The notes below the pieces were generated by a model, which was not told where the DNA came from, did no database searches, and saw only the letters and a list, made by a program, of their open reading frames with translations. A stretch of DNA of 36,284 nt, taken from positions 1 to 36,284 of the forward strand of contig JAFGWI010000218.1 of NCBI GenBank assembly GCA_016937215.1. The letters run 5' to 3'. This document shows positions 1 to 36,284 of this stretch, one piece after another. Origin of the DNA: Spirochaetales bacterium. Lineage in GTDB: Bacteria; Spirochaetota; Spirochaetia; SZUA-6; JAFGRV01. Position 1 is the first letter of the stretch; each line of letters opens with the position of its first letter. Both the position numbers and the translations under genes were made by a program.

Positions 1-52
1 TGGCATGCGATTTTTGAAAAAATCGCATGCCATGCCTTCTATCCCTAACGCG
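1..52 (+). repeat. Dispersed palindromic repeat, copy A (3' end only)
   Basis: This is the right-hand end of a dispersed element whose left part lies outside the window. Positions 1-15 and 18-32 form a perfect 15-bp hairpin with the 2-base tip GA; the stem top is a T run facing an A run. Nine bases later comes the constant terminal block ATCCCTAACGCG (41-52), shared with copies at 13914-13925 and 29303-29314 and, inverted, at 30629-30640. The stem sequence is unlike that of the other copies, although the tip is the same. Confidence 0.8.
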
Positions 53-7512: not shown

Positions 7513-7600
7513 AGTGTTAGGCTGGTCATAAATGCAAAGCATTTATGACCATAGAATGTAAAGCCCGGCCTGTTGCAGCGAAGCGAAAACAGGTAACACC
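7513..7600 (-). repeat. Dispersed palindromic repeat, copy B (inverted, variant ends)
   Basis: This is a short copy in minus orientation. Its ends are GTGTTA (7514-7519) and TAACAC (7594-7599), where other copies have GCGTTA and TAACGC: both ends changed together. The inner stem is CCTGTT/AACAGG (7569-7574 with 7588-7593), where other copies have CCTGCT/AGCAGG. The variable hairpin is a perfect 12-bp stem with an AAA loop (7524-7535 with 7539-7550), and its arms recur in copy F at 36248-36266. It lies between tRNA-Arg and the dehydrogenase-like gene. Confidence 0.7.
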
Positions 7601-7676
7601 ACATACACCCATTAGTTAAAAATAAAAAGATTTTCAAAACATGACAAGAACTGTCAGAAAAGAAGGCCAAAAAAAG

Positions 7677-13784: not shown

Positions 13785-13925
13785 TGGGCGTTGCCTGCCT
13801 CCGCTCCGCTTCAGCAGGCCGGGCTTTGCGTGGTTCAAAGTCCTCGCCTGCCATTTGGGCAGGCTGCGGGCTTCGGAAAGCCCTTTTTGAAAAAAGGGCT
13901 TTCCGCCACTCCAATCCCTAACGCG
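13785..13925 (+). repeat. Dispersed palindromic repeat, copy C (complete)
   Basis: The copy runs from TGGGCGTTGCCTGC to ATCCCTAACGCG (13914-13925). It contains the 5' stem GCCTGC/GCAGGC followed by the constant CCGGGCT, a second hairpin GCCTGCC/GGCAGGC with a 5-base loop (13846-13852 with 13858-13864), and the 3' hairpin with a perfect 15-bp stem and GA tip (13874-13888 with 13891-13905). It fills much of the 305-bp gap between the sigma gene and cysS. Confidence 0.85.
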
Positions 13926-29162: not shown

Positions 29163-29314
29163 TGGGCGTTACCTGCTTTCACTTCGTTTCAGCAGGCCGG
29201 GCTGTTCCGCGGCTCCGCTTTGCTTTGACCAAAAACCCTGCTGAAAAAACGCAGGGTTTTTGTTGGCCCTGCTTTTTTGAAAAAAAGCAGGGCCCCGCTC
29301 CCATCCCTAACGCG
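29163..29314 (+). repeat. Dispersed palindromic repeat, copy D (complete)
   Basis: The copy has ends GCGTTA (29166-29171) and TAACGC (29308-29313), 5' stem CCTGCT/AGCAGG (29172-29177 with 29191-29196) followed by CCGGGCT, an 11-bp hairpin (29231-29241 with 29251-29261, 9-base loop) and the 3' hairpin with 14-bp stem and GA tip (29265-29278 with 29281-29294). The CCTGC core recurs in all three stems. The end lies three bases from the fabH stop codon. Confidence 0.85.
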
Positions 29315-30628: not shown

Positions 30629-30837
30629 TGCGTTAGGGATTGGAGCCATGTTGGGCAATTTTTTCAAAAATTGTCCAACAAAGCGTTTCAGGGCGGATAA
30701 TTTCCGCCCTGAAACCTTCGAAGGCGAAGCCATAGTGGCGTAAAGCCCGGGCCTGCCGGAACCTGGATATAAAGATTTTTTCAGTTAATCTTTCATGGGT
30801 AATTGTTATTAGTTTTCCGTGAAGGCAGGCAACGCCA
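30629..30837 (-). repeat. Dispersed palindromic repeat, copy E (inverted, with inner insertion)
   Basis: Read on the minus strand the copy begins TGGCGTTGCCTGCC and ends ATCCCTAACGCA (30629-30640 on plus, inverted). The 3' hairpin has arms 30651-30663 and 30666-30678 (one G-T pair), again with the T-run/GA/A-run tip; a second hairpin has a perfect 13-bp stem (30685-30697 with 30703-30715). The 5' stem GCCTGCC/GGCAGGC is split by about 65 bases absent from other copies. It ends about 50 bp before the fabD promoter. Confidence 0.8.
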
Positions 30838-36069: not shown

Positions 36070-36157
36070 GGAAAATCTTAAAATTCTACCATCCGAAAAG
36101 CAGGGCGATAAAAATCCTATATTAGAAAATTCGTATTTGTTTAGCTGGTTGTTATGT

Positions 36158-36284
36158 TGGGCGTTTCCTGCTTTCATTTCATTACAGCAGGCCAGGTTTT
36201 CCATAACTCCGCTTCGCTTCGAAATCCTTTGGTTGCATTCGCGAGCAATAAATGCGTAGCATTTATGACCAGCGCGGCGCGAAA
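36158..36284 (+). repeat. Dispersed palindromic repeat, copy F (cut by window end)
   Basis: The copy starts TGGGCGTTTCCTGC, with stem CCTGCT/AGCAGG and then CCAGGTT in place of CCGGGCT. It contains ATAAATGC/GCATTTAT (36248-36255 with 36259-36266), the same arms as the hairpin of copy B, followed by GACCAGC as in B. The window ends before the terminal block. Confidence 0.75.

Follow-up and report, generated by a model that had tools for sequence, protein, structure and literature searches.

The window that we analysed, a stretch of 36,284 nucleotides from a contig of a Spirochaetales genome, carries several copies of one folded repeat element, the core borders of which were set by a covariance model built in this analysis. 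The copies that a preliminary description of the same DNA had named A, C, D and E are present at the positions given there. Copy A (1-51, plus strand, model match at E 1e-10) is cut by the contig end and retains the 3' part of the core, namely hairpin HP4 at 1-32, the tail and ATCCCTAACGC; it belongs to a transposon-like form of the element, whose right inverted end, AGCTAAACAAGTAC, is matched exactly at 74-87 on the same strand. Copies C (13786-13924, E 8.5e-22) and D (29164-29313, E 2.1e-23), both on the plus strand, are full cores without inverted ends and have HP4 at 13874-13905 and 29265-29294, respectively. Copy E (30630-30837, minus strand, E 2.9e-31) is a full core with an enlarged HP1 loop, and its HP4, at about 30649-30680, contains one A.C mismatch. 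Two further copies, absent from the preliminary description, lack HP4: a degenerate core at 7514-7601 on the minus strand (E 1.2e-5) and a variant core at the contig end, at 36159-36280 on the plus strand (E 4.6e-6), which has its left inverted end, GTATTTGTTTAGCT, at 36133-36146 on that strand.

A second hairpin repeat, ATAAATGC-loop-GCATTTATGACCA, occurs within some copies (in the window at 7528-7551 and 36248-36271) and sometimes replaces HP3. Like many contigs of the assembly, the one studied here starts (1-51) and stops (36133-36284) inside element copies, so that the number of repeats is probably underestimated.

The preliminary description had presented the repeat as a near-perfect hairpin with a constant tip and copy-specific lower stems, and in these respects it was accurate. 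All 15 bp are paired in copies A and C and all 14 bp in copy D; one of the eight variable pairs of copy E is an A.C mismatch, so 'near-perfect' is the right wording. All four copies have the tip TTTTTGAAAAAA or a form extended by one T/A, and their lower stem sequences are unrelated to one another. Its picture of the element as a whole stood only in part: the hairpin is real, but it is only one of six helices in a folded core, and the terminal block taken for the element's end is not the end of many copies, which extend beyond the block to inverted repeats and a target duplication of 8 bp.

A folded core of six helices

On the plus strand the core consists, in this order, of P1 (GCGTT/AACGC), HP1, P2 (GGG/CCC, embedded in CGGGCT and ATCCC), the four-pair helix P3, HP3, HP4 and a tail. 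Across 40 full-length copies and 43 pairs, 97.8% of the cells are paired, against at most 49.5% in slid controls, and both sides have changed in 24 of the 43 pairs, with 274 such cells; the occurrence of further pair types is a weaker measure, reached by 5 of 500 shuffles. The long-range helix P3, with arms about 100 nt apart, is Watson-Crick in 460 of 492 cells (20 of 143 copies, which could not be parsed, are left out of this count), compared with a mean of 244 and a maximum of 274 in 1000 shuffles; such shuffle controls keep the relatedness of the copies, and what makes the case strong is how many pairs there are and that other genomes agree. RNAalifold recovered the same six helices with a few extra pairs.

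That agreement was found within the phylum, where the covariance model matches 12 of 148 other genomes and, with the host, 13 of 149, under strict filters that lose weak matches. In the 64 matches outside the host genome 97.0% of the cells are paired, and both sides have changed in 40 of the 43 pairs, all five of P1 among them; their alignment was fitted to the model and leans towards it, and the HP3 and HP4 columns are lettered in a minority of its rows. The core fold and its covariation hold, in this way, both here and in other genomes. The HP4 tip TTTTGAAAA recurs in the hairpin of four loci (L324, L326, L333 and L338) from two genomes, G149 and G109, of another family, and seven copies of G070 have the HP3 tip GAAATTA in common instead. 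Copies in the same orientation are clustered within 16-31 kb in G070 (C1:1996752-2028060) and in G119 (C35:5813-22255).

The core resembles structured noncoding RNAs of the Rfam kind in the strong covariation of a multi-helix fold, and differs from them in two respects. Rfam gave no family at its cut-off and none that was convincing below the cut-off in the two stretches tried, and the repeat was not described in the open-licence papers searched. The second difference is the near absence of G-U pairs, which occupy 3 of 1718 cells in the 40 copies and 13 of 1486 in the matches from other genomes, whereas seven host tRNAs have 9 in 148. G-U pairs are the usual stepping stone in compensatory evolution of RNA, and their scarcity is unlike an RNA gene; it suggests, with moderate confidence, that selection sees folded DNA and not RNA. 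The mismatches in HP4 (A.C 14, G.T 3) and P3 (A.C 6, G.T 4) hint that it is the minus strand that folds, although the excess of A.C over G.T is too weak to use.

Copy number, inverted ends and spread

The genome-wide search proposed in the preliminary description returned many further copies and not chance matches. In the host assembly (5.09 Mb in 335 contigs, 87.66% complete) the exact end ATCCCTAACGC occurs 205+196 = 401 times on the two strands, and the reversed pattern 0+1 times; no more than 3 such ends occur in any of 40 relatives, and the maximum among 391 other genomes of the phylum is 15. We read 225 right ends from the host genome, of which 197 are exact, and so covered about half of its copies. 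In the commonest type (132 copies) the eight variable pairs of HP4 are perfect in 102 copies, with one mismatch in 28, two in 1 and three in 1, and among these copies the left arm takes 83 different sequences and the pair of arms 94, the positions flanking the variable pairs being nearly invariant. The HP4 loop is GA in 176 cases, AA in 3, CA in 1 and GC in 1, by a pattern that misses the inverted loop TTTTTTCAAAAA; a list of 119 copies contains one such inverted loop, at C55:156. In four loci (L004, L013, L019 and L023) the HP1 loop holds inserts, from 40 to about 190 nt long, some of which contain palindromes themselves. A terminator role was considered and rejected, as convergent genes are not preferred (strands on the 5' and 3' sides: -/- 36, -/+ 33, +/+ 23, +/- 20). 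Of 122 copies, 20 overlap an ORF call by more than 60 nt.

Outside the core many copies have 14-bp inverted ends, GTAYTTGTTTAGCT on the left and AGCTAAACAARTAC on the right, the latter motif occurring 202 times exactly in the host genome and once reversed. At relaxed stringency, both ends are present in 28 of the 225 copies read, the left alone in 6 and the right alone in 72; to the 225 right-end motifs read, 29 left and 74 right inverted ends could be linked, and some copies are without ends. Under the strict setting, the 16 copies with both ends have 8-bp flanking repeats that are exact in 4 and within two differences in 9 (shuffled mean 1.2, maximum 6 in 2000). At the borders of the core itself no target duplication was seen in 122 copies, among them the end-less copies C and D. 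The copies that carry such ends are probably moved by a DDE transposase.

In its short length, the lack of any coding capacity seen, its inverted ends, a duplication fixed at 8 bp and the presence of hundreds of ends, the element is similar to MITEs of the DDE type. It differs from them in that its inside is a conserved six-helix fold, which is also found without ends here and elsewhere. No autonomous partner was found for it in the sequence searched, and most ends lie at contig breaks. Of 20 stretches around ends, the search for a transposase with matching ends looked more closely at the 4 that had no exact core: 3 of these 4 proved to contain a core by the model, and six ORFs from the four stretches are not transposases by Pfam. 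A C-terminal IS66 fragment lies at the edge of a contig, and no such end adjoins it.

The preliminary description mentioned similarly ended repeats in Bacteroidetes, and rightly so. Over 80% or more of its length, a short core (L066:1433-1511) matches 52 plasmids of the Bacteroides group, with an identity of 80-90% in 27 and of 60-80% in 25, and in all 15 plasmids listed the annotation names a recombinase gene at the match; these plasmids may represent one lineage and hence one event. On three conjugative plasmids the first base of the core is also the last of a gene annotated 'recombinase family protein' (L380:4001-4077, L381:4001-4077, L382:2801-2877). Copy C gave no match in plasmids, and the short core none in phage records. 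Among the viral contigs of IMG/VR, the long pattern was found in 0, the hairpin-and-end pattern in 1 (L261, which looks coding) and the short-core pattern in 23 (L357-L379), and of 26 loci from plasmids and viral contigs 22 are matched by the model with E no higher than 0.01. Judging from the 23 viral contigs, carriage by phages could explain the spread of the element across phyla.

How the stems change

As a clock for stem changes we used the linker of about 36 nt between AACGC and the end, usable in 82 copies; it is partly conserved and, with the conserved end counted in, may be a slow clock. The stems compared are those of copies within one genome and not of strains, and there is no genome of the same genus among the 40 relatives; orthologous loci were sought in one scan of named genomes, where the best FabH match was 51%. 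A minimum spanning tree of the copies was rejected, as a mismatched hub copy inflated the unpaired counts, and matched sister pairs were used instead.

Among sister copies, paired stem changes are in excess of unpaired ones. At a linker difference of 3.5%, sister pairs show paired changes of 4.3% per bp and unpaired changes of 2.6% per stem site, and at 9.7% the figures are 8.3% and 3.4%; with linker divergence, paired changes grow and unpaired ones level off. For HP4 the ratio of paired to linker changes is about 0.85, leaving out sister pairs with more than two paired or more than three unpaired changes (about 5 of 30); 3.35% of its pairs are mismatched, and 41 distinct stems are found in 82 copies. 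HP3 follows this trend less strongly: in its 10 pairs, paired changes come to 6.3% per bp and unpaired ones to 2.1% per site, with a ratio of 0.42. P3 offers only 7 sister pairs, with 3 paired and 4 unpaired changes. The question raised in the preliminary description, whether stems change as whole units, is answered mostly in the negative: of 30 sister pairs, a mean of 12.7 show no paired change, 9.3 show one, 3.0 show two and about 5 show three or more.

Four variants differing by one or two pairs (C1:122, C86:5339, C234:10498 and C330:4415) have stems that are unique among the 132 copies, so that no donor is seen in the half or so of the genome's copies that were read. Intermediates between paired states also exist, in the form of C.C, C.T and A.C mismatches each common to 2-3 copies, and such two-step intermediates argue against pure arm copying. 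Compared with the commonest stem, 25 variants in five linker clusters have paired changes only in 12 cases, unpaired only in 9 and both in 4, and in 8 of the 9 unpaired-only variants the mismatch sits in the commonest stem itself. Some hairpins have been swapped between copies, one HP3 stem being joined to several HP4 and HP1 types.

Proposed template switching and its alternatives

We propose, with a probability of roughly 0.6, that the core resides in many copies within a miniature transposon, that its stems are written by template switching and that selection keeps the fold and the tips. During DNA replication a mutated arm would be copied onto its partner arm, by which a mismatch would become a new pair, and selection is likely to keep the overall fold and the hairpin tips. 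Such arm copying would probably be the quasipalindrome template switch, in its within-strand snap-back form, because inverted loops are rare. For the covariation of P3 a snap-back fails, since the arms are far apart, and selection, inheritance or both are needed there.

The published accounts of quasipalindrome template switching describe a single event that turns imperfect arms into perfect ones, with the loop kept in the within-strand form (PMC7202029, PMC8794818); the preliminary description knew of no accepted mechanism, but a published one does exist. The rRNA-gene study calls its own strongest evidence for short stems circumstantial (PMC8794818). The likeness to our case is that paired changes behave as single events and not as two independent hits. 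The loop inversion of the between-strand form is not the pattern here, and only the within-strand form fits; the published cases are reporters and rRNA genes, whereas here we deal with a repeat family of hundreds of copies and a clocked estimate.

Simulations (N 300, 3-4 runs per setting) bear on the choice between readings. A doubtful alternative is compensation in two steps, in which the core would be a functional structured RNA or DNA, single hits would break pairs and selected second hits would restore them. The covariation of the long-range helices P1, P2 and P3 across genomes and the mismatched intermediates in several copies speak for this reading; selection alone, however, gave simulated ratios of 0.00-0.04 and 7-20 distinct stems of 82, far from the observed values, and the rarity of G-U pairs in both sets of genomes, compared with tRNAs, also speaks against it. 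Gene conversion or recombination between copies, which would bring paired changes together by importing whole hairpins from a donor, appears quite improbable. It accords with the shuffling of modules seen in the one HP3 stem that has several partners, and with the few sister pairs that differ by 3-7 paired changes, but conversion alone cannot make new stems, several derived stems occur singly among the 132 copies (with about half of the genome's copies read, a donor may lie among the others), and selection combined with conversion reached ratios of 0.05-0.47 with just 10-17 distinct stems among 82 copies.

When arms were copied at 50 times the mutation rate, on the other hand, the simulations gave ratios of 0.54-0.95, mismatches of 3.5-4.0% and 38-53 stems (with conversion included in one run). 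At 20 times the ratios were 0.71-0.84 with mismatches of 8-9%, and 0.29-0.41 when selection was added, so the fit of arm copying depends on its rate. With only about 3% of pairs in a mismatched state at a given moment, mismatches must be removed at a rate tens of times that possible by point mutation. The idea of the preliminary description that some process rewrites the stems round a fixed tip is thus upheld, since paired changes keep step with the linker and lie far above two independent hits as simulated, and among the mechanisms that it listed strand switching or hairpin-templated repair is the best match.

Another of its proposals, a REP-type (RAYT/TnpA, HUH) single-strand transposase that acts in trans, moves the element and writes the stems, is very improbable. 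REP and REPIN sequences with RAYT (PMC3116915, PMC3733652) share with our element hundreds of intergenic palindromic copies per genome, and the element differs from them in its six-helix core, its inverted ends with 8-bp duplications and the lack of a tie to Y1_Tnp. The suggested search for a RAYT or HUH gene did find two 159-aa Y1_Tnp (RAYT-like) genes in the host (L044:1471-1950 and L045:1387-1866), flanked by GGGACAGACC / GGTCTGTCCC copies, and one element copy lies about 200 bases from the gene on L044, but no tie to the element emerged across genomes: of the other genomes, 7 of the 12 that carry the element have Y1_Tnp, as do 7 of 20 that lack the element, the gene is absent from the element-bearing G058, G070, G109, G149 and G159, and the 3,342 bases of L045 contain no exact element end. 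By eye, GGGACAGACC, a motif other than the element's, lies near both host genes; it occurs 19 times in the 946,431 host-genome bases searched. PF01797 (Y1_Tnp) also covers TnpA of the IS200 type. Target duplications of 8 bp with inverted ends, as in our element, are not known as marks of Y1 elements, and a REP/REPIN consists of one short palindrome whose foot carries a fixed tetranucleotide, unlike the six-helix core here, whose foot helix varies across genomes.

That the core is a recombination site like integron attC is hardly credible: like attC it is folded DNA with few fixed bases, GTT/AAC stands at the foot of many copies and same-orientation clusters exist in G070 and on contig C35 of G119, but the foot helix is free to vary (GCGTT/AACGC, GCGGC/GCCGC, GCAGT/ACTGC, GCGCA/TGCGC), so that its boundary triplets are not fixed, and the order GTT...AAC is the reverse of that in attC.

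On our best reading, the folded mobile family, which a miniature transposon carries in many of the copies here, is new to Rfam, and its stems are best accounted for by quasipalindrome template switching, already known, at a high rate and together with selection for the fold. The family spans at least two bacterial phyla as well as viral contigs. It is possible, though we put it forward only tentatively, that we are dealing with a folded mobile DNA spread across phyla, in which tips and junctions alone are inherited as sequence, all stems are continually rewritten, one arm from the other, at tens of times the rate of point mutation, and the fold as DNA is the trait under selection. Whether paired stem changes arise in one step or in two is a standing question, and since the copies in this one genome run in parallel by the hundred and bring their own linker clock, they allow an estimate of how fast one-step pairing occurs; our estimate, that arms are copied tens of times as fast as point mutations arise, lends itself to a check in a laboratory strain. 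The family also carries a warning that covariation by itself is no proof of a functional RNA, and it would provide a natural test of paired-stem evolution.
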